Virus record (IMG/VR): IMGVR_UViG_3300043465_000218
Location: 1-20,181 of that record
DNA length: 20,181 nucleotides
Reading direction: 5' to 3' (one strand)
Source of the DNA: a virus
The position numbers and the translations under genes were made by a program. Every line of letters begins with the position of its first letter. The first letter of the stretch is position 1. The notes beneath the pieces are model-generated. The model searched no databases and was not told the DNA's origin. It worked only from the letters and a program-made list of their open reading frames with translations. Of this stretch, positions 2,996-19,719 are shown piece by piece.

Positions 2996-3274
2996 TCACT
3001 CGACTTCAGGTTCAACAGGTAACAAACCGTTAACACTCAGACGGTGCACCCGACGAACCATCCCCAACGGAATCGCAACGATATGGTCAAGCATGTCGTC
3101 GCGTTCAATTATGGACTGCGCCAACACTAGGTGCCCTGGTTTACTGTGTGGAAGTAACACACCGACCGACCGCACCACACACGGTTCATCATCAATGTCG
3201 TCAACACTTGACCAGGTGTCAGAAACTGCGTGAGCGTCATGCCACACCACCTCTACCAACATGTAGTCACTCAC
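2996..3274 (-). CDS. Hypothetical protein downstream of phosphoesterase (92 aa)
   Basis: A 92-residue protein. I chose the GTG at 3274, which overlaps the phosphoesterase stop by eight bases (GTGAGTGA) and has GGAAGG about nine bases upstream; an ATG at 3262 is the alternative. The longer frame starting at 3394 is inside the phosphoesterase gene. The sequence has a WHDAHAVSDTW segment, an acidic DDIDDEP stretch, then a strand-rich part (CVVRSVGVLLPHSKPGHLVL, then HIVAIPLGMVRRVHRL). I recognise this layout from small proteins of actinobacteriophages that accompany replication or accessory genes, but their function is unknown. It is the last gene of the late-operon run before the hairpins. Confidence 0.65.
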   Translation of the reverse strand: MSDYMLVEVVWHDAHAVSDTWSSVDDIDDEPCVVRSVGVLLPHSKPGHLVLAQSIIERDDMLDHIVAIPLGMVRRVHRLSVNGLLPVEPEVE

Positions 3275-4427
3275 CGCCGTACACCTTCCCACGCCAAAAC
3301 GCTTGACCATCAAATATTGGCACCTGCTCATATGTGAACCGATGCGTCTCCGAGTTGTACGGGATGACCGCCAAACCTTGCTGCCAATCCTCATGACGCG
3401 TCAACGGTCGCCCATCCAAATCGGTACCGCCACGAGTTGACGGCACCACACCATCAATGCGAGCCAAACAACCAGGCGACGCCGCCATCACCGTTGACGG
3501 ACCATCAAAATCCTCACGGGTCCGATACGCGGTCTCTATGCGGTGAATATGCCCGTAGATCACACTCACTTTTTCGGTGGCAAGATACTTGTGGGCGGTG
3601 CTACCACCGGAGGCGACACGGTCGCCGTGGATGACTCGCAGTTTGGGTGTGATCCACACGCATCCCGTCGGGTATCCGCTGAGATACTCGATGCTGTAGT
3701 CGTCAAGGCGGCACAGGAACGGCACTGACATGACGGGCCAGGCGTCAGGGATGTTGCCTCGACGCAACCCGAACGCTGCACCAGCGTTGTCGATGAGGTA
3801 GCGGGGGAGGCGTTCCTCATGGTTTCCTGCGATCCACACGATGCGTGCGTCGGGTGCGGCATGGCGCACTTCGGCGCAGAGTATGGCGGCACGGTCAATG
3901 GTCGCCTGTGTCGTGTTCTGGTACGGCGCAGTGAGCCTATATTTTGACATTTCGGGGAGGTCAAGGTTGTCGCCGACGAGCACCACGAGGTCAGGTTTCG
4001 CCGCCGCTGTCACCGCGAGCGCAGCCGCCAACGCTGACTCGTCATGTGTGGGCACTAGAACGCCGTCTGCGCCTTTGTAATAGCCGATCTGCATGTCGGG
4101 GAGTACGACACAAACAGAACCGCTAGCGGGCGCCTGCGCCGTTTTGCGGGGAGGCAGTTTCACTAATGGACCAGGTTGCACCACAGGCCATTGGGGACCG
4201 TCAGCCCAATGAGGCGACAACTGCACCGCCGTCAAATCGTGAACCGTCGGCTCACCAGTCTCCGGATCTTTCGTCACCTGCTGATACAACGAGACACGAC
4301 GAACCGAACCAACCTCATCAACATCAATACCGTTGCGTTCCAACAGTTCAGCGATGCGCCCTAATGCTGCACGTTTCGCGCCCGACGGTTCGGCGGCGCG
4401 TGCGATGTCGTCACTCAGCGCGCCCAC
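3267..4427 (-). CDS. Calcineurin-like metallophosphoesterase with N-terminal helical domain
   Basis: A 386-residue protein with the full metallophosphoesterase motif set: DMQ (111-113), GDNLD (152-156), GNHEE (201-205), HGD (267-269) and GHIH (292-295). Motif I has Gln where DxH is usual, a variation seen in this superfamily. Residues 1-100 form a separate helical/linker region (about 5-45 includes ERNGIDVDEVG and VRRVSLYQQVTKD) that I have seen fused to phosphoesterases in actinobacteriophages. I chose GTG 4427: GAGGGGAG lies seven bases upstream, and it overlaps the HTH gene by 17 bases. The upstream extension in the same frame overlaps that gene and looks non-coding. The likely reaction is phosphodiester or phosphomonoester hydrolysis with two metals; the substrate (nucleic acid, cyclic nucleotide or protein) is unknown. 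Confidence 0.85.
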   Translation of the reverse strand: MGALSDDIARAAEPSGAKRAALGRIAELLERNGIDVDEVGSVRRVSLYQQVTKDPETGEPTVHDLTAVQLSPHWADGPQWPVVQPGPLVKLPPRKTAQAPASGSVCVVLPDMQIGYYKGADGVLVPTHDESALAAALAVTAAAKPDLVVLVGDNLDLPEMSKYRLTAPYQNTTQATIDRAAILCAEVRHAAPDARIVWIAGNHEERLPRYLIDNAGAAFGLRRGNIPDAWPVMSVPFLCRLDDYSIEYLSGYPTGCVWITPKLRVIHGDRVASGGSTAHKYLATEKVSVIYGHIHRIETAYRTREDFDGPSTVMAASPGCLARIDGVVPSTRGGTDLDGRPLTRHEDWQQGLAVIPYNSETHRFTYEQVPIFDGQAFWRGKVYGGE

Positions 4428-4665
4428 AACGGCACTCCCCTCTACGGTGGCGTTGCAACGCACCCTGAGACACATTAATTCCACGCTGATCCAACGCACG
4501 CCAGATCGCCGATGTTGGCACCAACGGTTCAGAGAACGCCGCCAGGAGGTCGGCGTAATCATCGGGGGTGAATGTTTGCTTTAACACTTTCACGGTGCAT
4601 GTGGGGCCGCCTAGCCCTTTTTTGTTGCCGCGTATCTCATCGAGTAGCCGTATCGGTTTGTTCAC
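4411..4665 (-). CDS. Small helix-turn-helix protein
   Basis: An 84-residue protein, starting at GTG 4665 with GAAGG upstream. Residues 38-75 read as a DNA-binding helix-turn-helix: TSAIWRALDQRGINVSQGAL followed by QRHRRGECRC. The pattern of PTSAI, a helix, a turn at RGI-VS, a recognition helix and then RHRRGEC-C is one I know from actinobacteriophage proteins often placed just before a calcineurin-like phosphoesterase, exactly as here. Cys 23, 78 and 80 may be structural. It could be a small terminase-like or regulatory protein; since TerL is at the other end of the window, I cannot decide. The 17-base overlap with the phosphoesterase implies co-translation. Confidence 0.7.
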   Translation of the reverse strand: MNKPIRLLDEIRGNKKGLGGPTCTVKVLKQTFTPDDYADLLAAFSEPLVPTSAIWRALDQRGINVSQGALQRHRRGECRCGRAE

Positions 4666-4698: not shown

Positions 4699-4893
4699 CT
4701 AGATGCTATTGACTTCGGGTTCATCAACGGGGGCATGCCAAACACCGTTGACGAGTTGCCAACCGAACGACACGCCAGCGTTATCTGCACACGGTAGGAG
4801 TTGTGCAACACCAGCGGGCGAATACGGTGTGGAACCATCCCAAACAGAAATGTTTACGACAACGCCGTCAGCGTTCAATTCTAGATATCTCAT
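4699..4893 (-). CDS. Small tail-fibre-associated protein
   Basis: A 64-residue protein. The ATG at 4893 overlaps the stop of the collagen-like adhesin (ATGA). The sequence starts with [20 protein letters not shown] and has a [19 protein letters not shown] stretch. A motif of this kind (valid for short beta-rich proteins after tail fibre genes: an N-terminal VVVN strand, a C-DN cluster, then GW and a V-GVW strand) recurs downstream of phage tail fibre genes. Its role is not established; it may be a fibre assembly or tip protein. A TCTAG/CTAGA inverted repeat (4690-4703) spans the stop codon. Confidence 0.6.
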
Positions 4894-6083
4894 CCGAACA
4901 CCCATATCTTGATTTGTGCGTTGCCGCCATTACCGCCTGCACCTGAGTCGAAACCGTTTGCTGAACTGCCACCGCCGCCACCACCACCACCAATGTTGCC
5001 ACCGTTGCCACCATTGCCACCAGTAACAGTTGTTCCTCGTGCGCCACCACCACCGCCTTGTGATGTTCCACCGTCAGATCCGTTCGCGCCTGCGGTAGCA
5101 CCACCAGCACCGCCACCGCCTTGTGTTGGGGTGTTCGTGTTGACGGTAAGACTGAGAGGTGCATCGGATTCAGAACTGCCACCAGCAAAACCTGCGATCG
5201 CTGCAACCCCACCGCCACCGCCACCGCCGCCACCACGCCAACCCTTAAAACCTTCTGCTGATGCGGAACCACTACCCAAACTTTGGGATAGAACCAAACC
5301 ACCTGAATATCCAGAACCACCAGCATTTCTCAAACCTGGTGCGCCACCAACAAAATAGAATGATCCGAAACGAGACGAACCACCCCTATCACCACGCAAA
5401 CCACTTGTGGAGTCCGTAGTGATTGAAGCACCACCAGCACCACCAGCACCGACAGTCACTGTCACAGATGCCCCGACACCGCCGAGTTCTGAAACGGGTA
5501 CAGATATGCGTTCCCACGCACCACCAGCACCACCAGCAGCAGGGAGAAAGCCTGTGGTTCTACGATCTCCCGAGGCACCGCCACCGCCAGCACCAATACA
5601 CTCAACCACAATCAGTTTTGAAGTAGCAGGGATTGTGTAAGTAGTTGAACTTGAGAAGGTTTGTGCGTCAATCTGAGACATCGCACCAGCAGAACCCGTT
5701 GCGCCAGTTGCGCCGATAGCGCCCTGAGCGCCAGTCGCACCCGTGGCACCGACAGCACCAGTCGGACCGATAGCGCCCTGAGCACCAGTTGCACCCGTAG
5801 GGCCAGGAACAGTTGACGCTGCACCAGTTGCACCAGTCGCACCGATGGCACCCGTTGCGCCCGTTGCGCCAGTTGGACCAGTAGGGCCAGGAACAGTTGA
5901 CGCTGCACCCGTTGGACCCGCAGGACCAGTTGCACCCGTCGGACCCGTGGCACCTGTATCACCAACAGGGCCAGCAGTACCCATGTTCTGAATCGAAACA
6001 CTCTGACTCGTTTGCGTCACCGTCACATTATTAGTCTCAGTCACACTAACCGTGAACGGCGTGTCATTGAGGGTCACACTCAT
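4890..6083 (-). CDS. Collagen-like, glycine-rich tail fibre/adhesin
   Basis: A 397-residue protein in four parts. Residues 1-34 are Thr/Val/Ser-rich and likely the attachment region. Residues 35-134 are Gly-X-Y collagen-like repeats dominated by GAT and GPT, twice interrupted at the same STVP break (residues 62-65 and 90-93). Residues 138-163 form a beta-strand linker ([20 protein letters not shown]) typical of the start of glycine-rich phage tip domains. Residues 164-390 are glycine-rich with pure Gly runs at 284-292 and 365-372, ending IKIWVFG. The combination suggests a trimeric fibre with a triple-helix stem and a polyglycine-type receptor-binding tip like the adhesins of some T4-like phages. 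The start overlaps the previous gene (ATGA). Confidence 0.85.
5797..5909 (-). repeat. 29-bp in-frame direct repeat pair in the collagen-like stem
   Basis: The 29 bases at 5797-5825 are repeated identically at 5881-5909. The period is 84 bases, exactly 28 codons, so recombination between copies would delete or add 28 residues without changing frame. Both copies encode the [10 protein letters not shown] interruption of the Gly-X-Y repeat. Confidence 0.8.
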
Positions 6084-6988: not shown

Positions 6989-7567
6989 TCACCGCACATC
7001 AAGTGTGGGAAAATATGCAATGGCGTCGAGTACGGACTGCGGCAGTCTGTCGCCGCACACATAGCGCAGATGCCATGCCTCGGCGTTTGGGTTTTTGGGG
7101 TCTGCAACTTCCCACGTGAAACCAAATTTCAGGGCGTTAGAAGTTGCGAACCCGTCGCCGAGTAACCACGCAAGGCGTTTACCTGAACAGTCGGCGATAT
7201 CCACCGCGAGGCCGAGGCCGTGGTTCGACGTGGAAGGGGTGCCCGCAGGCGCCATACCCTTTTTCAAATACCAAGTCTTGCCCAAATAGGTGCGGGTCAC
7301 CTGCGGTTTACGACCCGTCGGCGACAACGCATAACGATTGTTGAACAGGGCCATCTGTTCAGATAACGGCCTATATGCGCCAACATGCTTCAACTCGATA
7401 CCGTCAAAGTATGCGGCGAGCTGCATCGCATTCCATGCGGTAGCGGCGAGGGCGTGCAGCTGACCGTTCGGTGCCTTAATGTTCCGCAACAGTTTCGCAG
7501 GCAGTTTACCGTTCGCAACACCTACCAGATCTGACGGCATGATGATCGGCAGCACCGGATACAACAT
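6989..7567 (-). CDS. Endolysin, M15 family peptidase (LAS-type, VanY-like)
   Basis: A 192-residue protein with the zinc peptidase signature: YRPLSEQ (65-71), SNHGLGLAVDIA with H116 and D123 as zinc ligands, and EAWH with E163 as catalytic base and H166 as third ligand. This family cuts peptide bonds in the peptidoglycan stem or cross-bridge. No signal peptide or cell-wall binding domain is present, so export through a holin is expected. The start at 7567 overlaps the previous stop (TGATG); an internal Met10 (MPSDL) is an alternative start. The holin candidate follows. The exact bond cut, D-Ala-D-Ala or L-Ala-D-Glu type, cannot be read from sequence. Confidence 0.92.
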   Translation of the reverse strand: MLYPVLPIIMPSDLVGVANGKLPAKLLRNIKAPNGQLHALAATAWNAMQLAAYFDGIELKHVGAYRPLSEQMALFNNRYALSPTGRKPQVTRTYLGKTWYLKKGMAPAGTPSTSNHGLGLAVDIADCSGKRLAWLLGDGFATSNALKFGFTWEVADPKNPNAEAWHLRYVCGDRLPQSVLDAIAYFPTLDVR

Positions 7568-15755: not shown

Positions 15756-16946
15756 TCAGGAGACAGCGCCACCGACGAAACACTTAACGGCACCGGTCTG
15801 ATCGACCAGAACACCGTCAGTGCGGAGGCTCACACGGAACGTGCGCACCGAGTAGTCGAACGCGAAGTCGTCAGACACGGCAACTTCAATGCCGTTGACT
15901 TCACGAATGAAGTACGACGGCAAGTGACCGAATAGGACTGACTTAGCGGCGACCGCGGTGGAGGCCATTGAGTCGTTGATGTGAACGGGGAAACCGAGCA
16001 ACGTGTCAGCAACACCGTTCAGACCTGGTGCGAACAGGTACTGGTTGGTGGTGTCCTTCAATTTGCGTGCGGCGGCCATTGACGATGAGTTCATCATCCA
16101 TGCCACGCCTGGTTGCGCCTTGTAGGTGCTTGACACCGAGTAGTTCAGGTCAATGAGGTTGTCGGCGGTGAACGCACCCGAAACGGCTGCGGCACCAGTG
16201 ACACCAGTGGTGGCGTTGGTGACGATACCGTAAGGCTTGCTCGAACCGTCGCCCGTGGTCATGTGACCGCGAGTTGCGACACCGATGGCCAAACCTGCCT
16301 GGCGTGCCAAGAAACCAGCAACATCGACGGTGGCGTCTTGTGCGAGTTCGTTGGACATTTGAACGAGCACGACATACTTGTATGCGTTCAACGTTGCGGT
16401 GCCGAGAGTCGGGTCCGATGCGCTCGCTTGTGCAGCCTCGCCAACAATGCTGGCGGTACTGAATGCGGTTGACTTCGGAATCGACAAGGCTTCACCACTA
16501 GCGGTGGTCAACACGGTTGCGTACTGGCGAACAACGTTCGCCTGAACCAAATGCTCAACGATGCGGTCGTACACTGACGACGGAACCATTGTGGCGCTTG
16601 ACTTAGTGATGGCACGCTTTTCAAACTTTGCGGTGCGCTGTTCACCAGCCAACAGACGGCGAACCGTCACATCATCCTGGTCAACTTCAGCGGCAGCGCC
16701 ACCGAGGTTTGCGGGAACGCCGAGGCGTGCGCGTGATTCTTGAATGTCACGGTCACGAGTTTCGGCGTCAAGGATTGACTTGATTCGAGCATCTTTGATG
16801 TCGAGGTCTGCGTTGATCCGGTCGAACGTTTGGTTTTCCTCAGCGGACAGATCACGCTTTTCAGCGACTGCCACATCGAGAAGTGCTTTGGCCTGTTCCC
16901 ATGCCTTAGCCCGCTCTTCAGATAAATTTGCGATGTATTCGCTCAT
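15756..16946 (-). CDS. Major capsid protein, HK97 fold
   Basis: A 396-residue protein. Residues 1-75 are helical and charged (SEERAKAWEQAKALLDVAVA, SAEENQTFDRINADLD, KDARIKSILDAETRDRD), the delta/scaffold domain of HK97-type capsids. The mature fold begins near residue 110 (TKSSATMVPSSVYDRIVEHL), then has AFSTASIVGEAAQASASDPT, YKYVVLVQMSNELAQDATVD, GDGSSKPYGIVTNA and ends FRVSLRTDGVLVDQTGAVKC. The upstream gene encodes the matching prohead protease, so cleavage somewhere near residue 100-112 is expected. ATG 16946 has a weak GGAA site and an unusual C-tract leader. The hairpin just downstream suggests high and separate expression. Confidence 0.95.
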   Translation of the reverse strand: MSEYIANLSEERAKAWEQAKALLDVAVAEKRDLSAEENQTFDRINADLDIKDARIKSILDAETRDRDIQESRARLGVPANLGGAAAEVDQDDVTVRRLLAGEQRTAKFEKRAITKSSATMVPSSVYDRIVEHLVQANVVRQYATVLTTASGEALSIPKSTAFSTASIVGEAAQASASDPTLGTATLNAYKYVVLVQMSNELAQDATVDVAGFLARQAGLAIGVATRGHMTTGDGSSKPYGIVTNATTGVTGAAAVSGAFTADNLIDLNYSVSSTYKAQPGVAWMMNSSSMAAARKLKDTTNQYLFAPGLNGVADTLLGFPVHINDSMASTAVAAKSVLFGHLPSYFIREVNGIEVAVSDDFAFDYSVRTFRVSLRTDGVLVDQTGAVKCFVGGAVS

Positions 16947-17059: not shown

Positions 17060-18046
17060 TCACGCTTTTTTGGCGTAAAGATCATTCATTCGACGAGCCA
17101 CCGAAACGGGCACAGTGACCACAGATGTTTCGTCAATATGTGTTTCGGTTTCTATGTTTCTGACAGTCGCACCAGATGTTTCAGGGTATGCGGGGAAACC
17201 AGTCACAACAGAAACCTCATGCAGAATAACTTCAGTGAGTGCGCGTTGTGCACCATTCTCTGACCAGATGTCACCTCCACGAGGAACACTGAAACCGAAC
17301 GACATGCCGTGCACATCACCGCGTTGCATCAACGCTGACAGATCACGAGCATATGTGGTGTCTGGTAGTTCACCCTCGACGAGTAAGCCGCGACTGTCCT
17401 CAGTGACAGTGATGGTGCCAGATCGGGTTGAACCGAGAACGAGATCAGTGTTGTGATTGACAAACATGCGAACTTCACGACCTGCGTTCAGTGACCGTTT
17501 GAATGCGCCAGGGCGGATCGTTTCGGTGAACGGCAACGGTTCTGACGGGGAGTTGAACACGGCCGCATATCCACGGAACCGCATCGGCTGCCCTTCCACA
17601 TCGGACCGCACCTCAATATTCCCGAACGAAACAGTACGAAATTCAACGTCACGACCTTGCACCTTACGATGCTGAATTTCTAGCGCGCCATACCTGACAG
17701 CAGGTTCAGATGTCCCGTTCATTTCCATTTCAGTTTCAACGGTATCACCAACGATAAGTCGGTCGGGAATAATCCACTTCTTGCAGATACCTTCCGGTGC
17801 GATGTCACCCTCAACGATTTCACAGGCGCGTGCGCCATCATAGAAAACGCACGAGCTGCACACCAAACCTTCAGCAGCGAACGGCGACTCAGCCATATAG
17901 TGCGCACCGTCAGCACTCGAATCCTGTGTGTACGAGCCGAACAGTTCCACGACTTTTTCGTCGTTCTCGTACTGCATCACCTGACGTGGTGTGAAACCGA
18001 GATCGCCTAATTCACCATCACGGGTTTCTAATTCGTTGAGGTCCAT
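17060..18046 (-). other. Internal in-frame start in the protease gene
   Basis: Met168 (ATG 18046) is preceded by AAAAGGAAA at about ten bases, a good ribosome binding site within the frame. A shorter protein of 328 residues would hold the Cys cluster and protease but lack the two N-terminal modules. Nested in-frame products are known in phage head genes such as lambda C/Nu3. The region just before it (about 153-167) is an unconserved linker. Confidence 0.45.
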
Positions 18047-18547
18047 ATTGTTTGTTTCCTTTTCGGATGTTTTGCTTTCAGAAATAATTGCCAACGACCA
18101 TGCGCGCCCCGCATCGCCACCCCACAACGCCCACGCGACACGGCCCGCAGACGGGAAACCTTCCTCGCCGGCACGGAAACCTTCGGCATCCTTATCAACC
18201 AGATGACGCGCAAAATACGATGACATCCGTTTCACAGTGTCGAACGACAGATCACCATTGATGATGTCCCTCGCACGAGCAACACCGACCGCCGTGCCAC
18301 CACGCCCAAACTCCTGACGCCAATCCAAACCCTGCTGCGCCTCATCACGCATCGCCGATGTCGGTGTATAAGAATCAGCACGAATATCACGCGACTGTTC
18401 ACTGTATTCAGGCATAGCGATATTCAACGCTGCTAACTGACGCAATGCCGCTGACCTCGTTTTGTGGCATCCAACAACATCACCACCATCTTTGACCACG
18501 GCGTATCCATCGCAGTCAGCATTGTTGTTCTCAATATGCCACGGCAT
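17060..18547 (-). CDS. Prohead protease with N-terminal fused modules (S78/U35-type)
   Basis: A 495-residue protein. Residues 1-42 form a small module (PWHIENNNADCDGYAVVKDG, then GCHKTRSAALRQLAALN). Residues 60-152 (PTSAMRDEAQQGLDWRQEFG, VGVARARDIINGDLSFDTVK, GFPSAGRVAWALWGGDAGRA) are a conserved helical phage module. Residues 228-258 hold a C230-x2-C233-x8-C242-x12-C255-x2-W pattern. Residues 318-465 are the HK97-type maturation protease, with candidate catalytic H365 (VNHN) and S416 (GMSFGF). The enzyme processes capsid and scaffold in the prohead. HK97's protease is about 225 residues, so this protein is more than twice as long. ATG 18547 overlaps the portal stop by one base. Confidence 0.88.
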   Translation of the reverse strand: MPWHIENNNADCDGYAVVKDGGDVVGCHKTRSAALRQLAALNIAMPEYSEQSRDIRADSYTPTSAMRDEAQQGLDWRQEFGRGGTAVGVARARDIINGDLSFDTVKRMSSYFARHLVDKDAEGFRAGEEGFPSAGRVAWALWGGDAGRAWSLAIISESKTSEKETNNMDLNELETRDGELGDLGFTPRQVMQYENDEKVVELFGSYTQDSSADGAHYMAESPFAAEGLVCSSCVFYDGARACEIVEGDIAPEGICKKWIIPDRLIVGDTVETEMEMNGTSEPAVRYGALEIQHRKVQGRDVEFRTVSFGNIEVRSDVEGQPMRFRGYAAVFNSPSEPLPFTETIRPGAFKRSLNAGREVRMFVNHNTDLVLGSTRSGTITVTEDSRGLLVEGELPDTTYARDLSALMQRGDVHGMSFGFSVPRGGDIWSENGAQRALTEVILHEVSVVTGFPAYPETSGATVRNIETETHIDETSVVTVPVSVARRMNDLYAKKA

Positions 18548-19719
18548 TACTTCGGCGGCTCCGCGTCAACACCCATCGGCGGCGGTGTTTCACCAGGACC
18601 AGCCATCGGTGCACCAGGCAACGCCATCACAAATTCGTCGCCGCCTTCATACGGTTCAAGATCCTCACTGGCACGACATTCGTTCGGTGTACGAATACCA
18701 GTCGCGACGGCCAACTGATACGCCTTCAAACGGCTGAGAGTGTCAGCACGCAGGAACGCATCAACATCAAAACGCACAAAATCTGGTGGCGCTAACAAAC
18801 TAGAGAACGCATCCTCAAGACGACGCAACCACGGCATCAACGTATAAGTCACAAAATGCTGACCCGCCATCTCAGCGTTCGCGTATGTTTGTGAGTCGCC
18901 CTTAGCGCCGATCAAGTATGATGGCACACGGAAAATGCGTGCGATCTGCAACACCTGCTGCTCACGAGACGCATTCAACTCCATATCGGCAGCACTCGCC
19001 GTGACTGGTCGCCACTTCATGCCACCAGTGAGAACAGCAGGTCGGCGGCGACGGTTGTGCTGGTCGAACCAGGTCTCACGCAGAACCTTCGCCTGCTGCG
19101 CTGTCATCTCGTTATCGGTTTCAATAACACTCGACGGCGTACCGCCGTCGGCATAGAACTGTGCCATGTGGCGTTCCATAGCCAACGCCAAACCGATCGT
19201 CGTTTTCTGTTCCTCAATAGGAGACAAACCGACCACCGCCTGCGGTGGTGCCCACCAGCGAATATGCAACATGTTCTCAGCCGGAACAGGCTCACCGCCG
19301 ACGGTGTAGTTGCGGGTCTGCATATTCAACGACACAACATTCACATTCGTCGGCGACAACGGCGTCAACGCAATCGGCGTGCCGTTCGCACTGCGGTCAA
19401 CATAAATGTACGAATTCCCATGCAACGCCAAACTGGTGATCGTCTGATGGATCAACTCGTATGCCGTCACAGTTGACGACGGATCAAGAAACAACGCTGG
19501 CACATCCATCGGGATATTGCGGTCACCGATTCGACGAGTAGAACGCAACGGTAGTGACGCAACACTGTCAGCAATCAAACCAACACACGCCATCACCGCC
19601 GAGACCTGCAACGCAGTTGACTCATTAACAGGTTCACCAGACCAATTCGTGACGGTACCGAAACCGCTGTTCTGCAATGGGAGAAACTCGCGTCGTTCAC
19701 GCCTCGAAAAAATGCTCAT
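18547..19719 (-). CDS. Portal protein, HK97 family
   Basis: A 390-residue protein with the HK97-type portal layout: STALQVSAVMACVGLIADSV (35-54), LHGNSYIYVDR, AENMLHIRWWAPP and GLSPIE in the clip and wing, then LAMERHMAQFYADGGTPSSV, REQQVLQIARIFRVPSYLIG in the stem, and the C-terminal RLKAYQLAVATGIRTPNECR with LEPYEGGDEFVM. It forms the ring at one capsid vertex through which DNA is packed. The ATG at 19719 overlaps the upstream membrane protein stop (ATGA). Length is normal for the family. Confidence 0.96.
   Translation of the reverse strand: MSIFSRRERREFLPLQNSGFGTVTNWSGEPVNESTALQVSAVMACVGLIADSVASLPLRSTRRIGDRNIPMDVPALFLDPSSTVTAYELIHQTITSLALHGNSYIYVDRSANGTPIALTPLSPTNVNVVSLNMQTRNYTVGGEPVPAENMLHIRWWAPPQAVVGLSPIEEQKTTIGLALAMERHMAQFYADGGTPSSVIETDNEMTAQQAKVLRETWFDQHNRRRRPAVLTGGMKWRPVTASAADMELNASREQQVLQIARIFRVPSYLIGAKGDSQTYANAEMAGQHFVTYTLMPWLRRLEDAFSSLLAPPDFVRFDVDAFLRADTLSRLKAYQLAVATGIRTPNECRASEDLEPYEGGDEFVMALPGAPMAGPGETPPPMGVDAEPPK

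Follow-up and report, generated by a model that had tools for sequence, protein, structure and literature searches.

The window analysed here is the whole of a 20-kb virus record (IMG/VR IMGVR_UViG_3300043465_000218; 20,181 nucleotides) that is not part of any larger assembly. Its head genes lie on the minus strand in the order portal-protease-capsid, which is the HK97-type order, and the stop codon of the portal gene overlaps the start codon of the protease gene (TAATG). The head genes and the catalytic domain are located as follows.

18547..19719, minus strand: portal protein, immediately upstream of the protease (PF04860, E=1e-80)
17060..18547, minus strand: prohead protease ORF, 495 aa (Pfam S78, E=5e-42; TIGR01543)
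17159..17617, minus strand: S78/HK97 prohead protease domain, residues 311-463 (Pfam and TIGR01543)
15756..16946, minus strand: HK97-type major capsid protein, downstream of the protease (PF05065 at 120-387, E=9e-58)

The protease ORF opens with an ATG at 18547, and its stop codon ends at 17060. No comparable ORF was found on the plus strand of 17060-18547, and a promoter scan of the protease region returned nothing above chance. The catalytic domain passes the curated cut-offs of both models: Pfam Peptidase_S78 covers residues 311-463 (E=5e-42, 144 bits against a cut-off of 21) and TIGR01543 covers residues 324-464 (128 bits against a cut-off of 59). The candidate catalytic residues H365 (VNHNT) and S416 (MSFGF) both fall within the matched S78 domain. 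The whole protein contains six Cys (12, 27, 230, 233, 242 and 255), none of which lies in the protease domain. In the major capsid protein, the N-terminal 119 residues fall outside the Pfam domain and are a probable delta/scaffold region. The preliminary description had stated that more than half of the protease gene product is not protease, and the S78 match at 311-463 indeed leaves ~69% of the chain to other sequence. Compared with the HK97 gp4-type prohead protease, the window protein shares the full catalytic domain above the curated cut-off and the portal-protease-capsid order but differs in its 300 additional N-terminal residues, which make up three exchangeable modules including the HiPIP-like one, and in a possible second start. 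Judged by its profile matches, the protein is an HK97-type prohead protease with three separate modules, A, B and C, N-terminal of S78.

Several further genes were recognised on the minus strand of the window. These encode a DNA N6/N4 methylase (457-1611), a calcineurin-like phosphoesterase (3267-4562) and a VanY-type peptidase that is likely the endolysin (6989-7567). At 4890-6083, collagen-like repeats (GPTGATG) precede a glycine-rich domain, and the product probably belongs to the tail fibre or tip. Two small Cys/His-rich ORFs (263-460 and 44-256; CGTLAAYARHRRHHEPPCAPC and CVACGITF...HPTHQC) gave no Pfam match.

Within the N-terminal part of the protease gene, the following features were distinguished.

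18413..18547, minus strand: module A, residues 1-45 (MPWHIENNNADCDGYAVVKDGG-VVGCH...), with C12 and C27; a unit found in 138 ORFs
18077..18370, minus strand: module B, five-helix, residues about 60-157 (phrog_2859, E=5e-27; AF2); found in 219 ORFs
18057..18061, minus strand: putative internal Shine-Dalgarno AAGGA (in AAAAGGAAACAAAC), 10 nt before an ATG (synonymous-codon conservation)
18044..18046, minus strand: putative internal start ATG, M168, which would yield a 328-aa short form (module C and protease)
17753..17950, minus strand: module C, HiPIP-like Cys4 module, residues about 200-265 (PDB profile search, Pfam, Foldseek)
17858..17860, minus strand: C230, first predicted cluster ligand, invariant
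17849..17851, minus strand: C233, second predicted cluster ligand, invariant
17822..17824, minus strand: C242, third predicted cluster ligand, invariant
17783..17785, minus strand: C255, fourth predicted cluster ligand, invariant
17774..17776, minus strand: W258, invariant aromatic at Cys4+3, as in HiPIPs (alignment; PMC7462912)

Module A mostly stands first in the chain. Its Cys pair, C12 and C27, which is also present in Pontimonas phage phiPsal1, may form a second metal or disulfide site. Module B was modelled by AF2 as five helices with a pLDDT of 95.6. Comparison with the PDB by sequence and by fold yielded nothing, with no fold match better than E=0.67, and Pfam gave no consistent family; against viral models, the only matches of module B were to further phage proteins, which are variously annotated and include many proteases or portals. 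The earlier suggestion that residues 60-152 form a separate module holds, as this segment matches phrog_2859 on its own and is found in other protein contexts. Module B (phrog_2859) occurs widely among phage head genes, where it is fused to portals (at their C-termini), proteases and capsid proteins; further examples are L049, L051, L054 and L084 among the 240 loci that we compared. Another mobile unit, module D (YRRGAGAFSTSHRPGM...DNDLL..HP+YS), stands before the Cys module or replaces it (L022 and L023, residues 167-297; L030; L046). Homology of modules B and D was considered and rejected (hhalign probability 0.1%).

The DNA just ahead of module C (AAAAGGAAACAAACAATATG) offers a good Shine-Dalgarno sequence and a start at M168, and both are kept in nearly all relatives. 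When the window is compared with five diverged relatives, synonymous-codon identity is 0.57 over the whole gene and 0.93 over residues 158-168, with the gene maximum in the ten codons starting at 157. In L027, which is without modules A and B, nearly the same Shine-Dalgarno and ATG follow the portal stop and constitute the only possible start of the gene. From this pattern we infer that the gene would give two products, of 495 and 328 aa. Phage lambda provides a mirror case, in which the scaffold Nu3 is nested in frame in the protease gene C. The alternative is that M168 is unused, the 495-aa protein is the single product, and AAGGA and ATG are a relic of module insertion. Module joins near M168 are indeed clear, with module D inserted just upstream in L022 and A and B missing from L027, and a recombination junction could be another cause of the high local conservation. 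However, synonymous conservation within the gene peaks around AAGGA-ATG, and L014-L020 retain AAGGA-ATG while being diverged elsewhere; we regard the relic as somewhat unlikely.

The motif C-x2-C-x8-C-x12-C-x2-W, which the preliminary description had noted at residues 230-258, is found exactly there. Its conservation was assessed in 80 relatives fetched by patterns lying outside the Cys segment. Among these Cys-independent relatives, 26 of the 27 copies of module C carry the exact motif, and the 27th is cut by a contig end. A wider search used module C itself and has a Cys bias, as every pattern included one or two of the four Cys; the fourth Cys was absent from all of these patterns, yet it is also invariant. 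In all 57 complete distinct copies of module C, the four Cys are present at x8 and x12 spacing, and they are kept in the most distant copy (26% identity), from Actinomycetia phage DSL-LC01. Invariant positions in a diverse 40-member alignment include H216, Y217, the four Cys, K256 and W258. In relatives without module C (L030/L031, L033-L037 and others), the whole module is gone and other sequence stands in its place. The possibility raised earlier that the Cys might not be conserved in homologues is thus answered by their presence in every complete copy, and this conservation is far beyond chance.

The spacing of these residues corresponds to that of a known iron-sulfur protein. PioC of Rhodopseudomonas palustris TIE-1 (PDB 6xyv, 7a4l, 7a58) has been described as the smallest known HiPIP, with cluster ligands Cys22, Cys25, Cys34 and Cys47 (PMC7462912). 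The offsets of C230, C233, C242 and C255 (0/3/12/25) are exactly those of PioC, giving the same x2-x8-x12 spacing, and the two also share the aromatic at Cys4+3 and a similar size of the cluster-binding segment. HiPIPs feature an aromatic residue at Cys4-1 as well as at Cys4+2/+3 (PMC7462912). The former is not present in module C: PioC, a free electron carrier, has Trp before Cys4, whereas module C, embedded in a phage head protease, has Ile, Val or Leu there.

Searches with module C covered 24,736 Pfam families and 177,635 PDB sequences, and HiPIP ranked first and was matched far more often than anything else. With a five-member profile, HiPIPs were the top three PDB matches (3h31, E=1.5e-4; 1isu, 0.018; 1hpi, 0.025). 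A 40-member profile found 3h31 at E=1e-4 (hmmsearch) and aligned the invariant Y217 with a Tyr of this HiPIP. Profile-profile comparison with five HiPIPs gave a probability of 97%. When the single protein was searched against the PDB, there was no usable match (best E=0.6), and HiPIP 3h31 came second with its Cys collinear. Matches to disintegrins in the PDB (E about 0.1) were taken as chance, as they mostly spanned ~25 residues and missed the last Cys. The core of the AF2 model of module C has a pLDDT of about 89-97 per block (segment residues 21-100), and in a Foldseek comparison with the PDB, 3h31 was the only match at E<=10 (E=0.05, probability 0.95), although the superposition is poor globally (rmsd 11 over 84 columns). 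This HiPIP, from Rhodothermus marinus, is therefore both the best sequence match of the module C profile and its only PDB fold match; it differs in being a free protein and in its longer loop between the second and third Cys.

Matches to the curated family were weak. The preliminary description had proposed HMM searches of both segments; residues 60-152 matched phrog_2859 as described above, whereas the Cys segment led to HIPIP (PF01355) only weakly and below the cut-off, with 13.9 bits for the window segment against a curated cut-off of 22. Weak matches to PF01355 were obtained for 29 of 40 module C members (best E=0.0042), and within the window's own record the family matches in a single place, 17774-17902. 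A strict PROSITE-type HiPIP pattern fits 0 of 126 segments, and a relaxed form of it fits 122 of 126. We do not file module C as a HiPIP, because the Pfam cut-off is missed, the aromatic at Cys4-1 is missing, and the module is internal to a head-assembly protein rather than a small, Tat-exported periplasmic electron carrier. The profile and fold matches nonetheless sharpen the earlier prediction of a small metal or iron-sulfur unit, and they suggest that module C is HiPIP-like and probably binds a [4Fe-4S] cluster.

In phage proteins, a small Cys4 unit is often a zinc site. Module C could accordingly be a zinc-binding knuckle or ribbon with a structural role that resembles HiPIPs merely in its Cys spacing. 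The absence of the HiPIP-typical aromatic before Cys4 fits such a site, and zinc-type Pfam matches do occur, though in just 2 of 40 members (zf_Rg). Against zinc stand the rank and frequency of HiPIP matches over the Pfam families and PDB sequences searched, the HiPIP identity of the sole PDB fold match, and the fall of the invariant Tyr and Trp on HiPIP positions. A zinc site is thus unlikely, and the matches favour the HiPIP-like [4Fe-4S] site over a zinc ribbon.

A second Cys4 variant, C2, is found in phiPsal1 and in many IMG/VR contigs. Its 68 distinct segments all have four Cys, with x2, mostly x15-18, and x12 spacing and a Tyr before Cys4. Of 17 members, 12 match Pfam HIPIP (best E=0.0013) and 11 match DUF7140, a family about which little is known; the profile-profile probability with the five HiPIPs is 95%. 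Direct homology between C and C2 is weak (34%), though both match HiPIPs, and the two may be separate acquisitions or far diverged. The phiPsal1 prohead protease (AUV61415.1) shares with the window protein modules A and B and a Cys4 module ahead of S78, but its order is A-C2-B-S78, and its C2 has the longer loop and the Tyr before Cys4. In DSL-LC01 (OQ999401.1), module C ends an 851-aa protease and module B lies in the preceding gene, so that, compared with the window, the modules are on different genes and in a different order. A neighbouring gene in DSL-LC01 (P0003) is annotated 'high potential iron-sulfur protein'; it has no Pfam match, and the label was not taken as proof. The label belongs to a Cys-rich phage protein distinct from module C, which is annotated in this way in both DSL-LC01 and the Manatee Spring phages (L082:1191-1925; H84-H88, MW202xxx).

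Module orders were compared with home-made profiles across the 240 loci. Ahead of S78, module C occurs in the orders A-B-C-S78, B-C-S78, C-S78, A-C-B-S78 and A-B-D-C-S78, among others, and C2 in the orders A-C2-B-S78, A-D-C2-B-S78, A-C2-B-D-S78 and A-C2-D-B-S78. Single cases have module C after the protease (S78-C, L101), a portal ending in module C (L144), and B-C-S78-capsid (MCP) as one chain (L146). L111, L113 and L130 encode A-B-C in an ORF of its own, which in L111 overlaps the protease start (ATGAATGA). In L030 and L033, module D or others take the place of module C. Further head modules were seen in the L146 and L084 fusions: L146 has an N-terminal stretch resembling XkdF, and a TUDOR-like domain of the DUF2945 type precedes the protease-capsid fusion. 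At the level of profile matches, these architectures show A, B and C to be independent, reorderable units outside the catalytic domain. Because the modules are reordered, lost and relocated, catalysis probably needs no fixed contact between module C and the protease, and an accessory role is favoured.

We propose, with moderate confidence for the reading as a whole and its mechanism, that the protein is a modular prohead maturation protease of the HK97 type and that its Cys4 segment forms a HiPIP-like module, similar in size to PioC, most likely binding one [4Fe-4S] cluster. The cluster would be loaded in the host cytoplasm and would keep the short module C folded; its role would be structural rather than that of a redox switch of proteolysis. 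The full-length protein, made from M1 in coupling to the portal stop, would enter the procapsid, where A, B and C may serve for docking or as internal components of the head, in contact with the portal, the scaffold region or DNA. The protease would then cleave the N-terminal region of the capsid protein and probably also itself, and self-cleavage could free the modules inside the head or lead to their discard. Use of M168 would give module C and protease without A and B, and thus two protease forms per procapsid. The docking and structural roles are suggested by gene position and modularity.

Other roles for the modules appear possible but less likely. As internal head cargo, they would ride the protease into the procapsid, be cut loose, and pass with the injected DNA into the new host, where they would act. 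MuF- and portal-linked 'polyvalent' effector domains, for which packaging and injection have been proposed (PMC5512222), offer a likeness, and portals carrying B or C at their C-terminus also occur; however, no enzymatic or toxin-like domain was recognised in A, B or C, and B has no consistent Pfam family, and we consider cargo improbable. More doubtful still is a true HiPIP-type [4Fe-4S] carrier, recruited to phage heads as a mobile module and packaged with the protease, whose cluster acts by redox or charge (in DNA protection, maturation timing or injection). It is very improbable that the cluster senses redox state or iron and thereby gates proteolysis, making head maturation dependent on the redox state of the cell. 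The covalent linkage of module C to the protease in most architectures and the lack of Cys in the catalytic domain would fit such a gate. A gate would, however, require fixed geometry, and module C has its own ORF in L111, follows the protease in L101, is fused to the portal in L144, and gives way to D or others in L030 and L033; these arrangements speak against a redox switch built into catalysis.

The relatives of the modular protease are IMG/VR virus contigs, and its closest cultured neighbours are actinobacterial phages (phiPsal1 of Pontimonas salivibrio CL-TW6, and DSL-LC01). Matches in genome collections included MAGs labelled Aurantimicrobium and actinobacterium, and also Rhodobacteraceae and other Proteobacteria, where the matching sequences may be mis-binned phage contigs. 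The host is likely an aquatic actinobacterium.

To our knowledge, Fe-S clusters are hardly known in the heads of tailed phages, and our literature search found no paper describing a HiPIP in a phage capsid protease. If module C holds a cluster, a small and well-studied redox fold would serve as an exchangeable head-assembly part in aquatic phages. Between the portal and capsid genes, the shuffled modules (A, B, C/C2 and D) offer a testable system for the roles of the large non-catalytic parts of prohead proteases.
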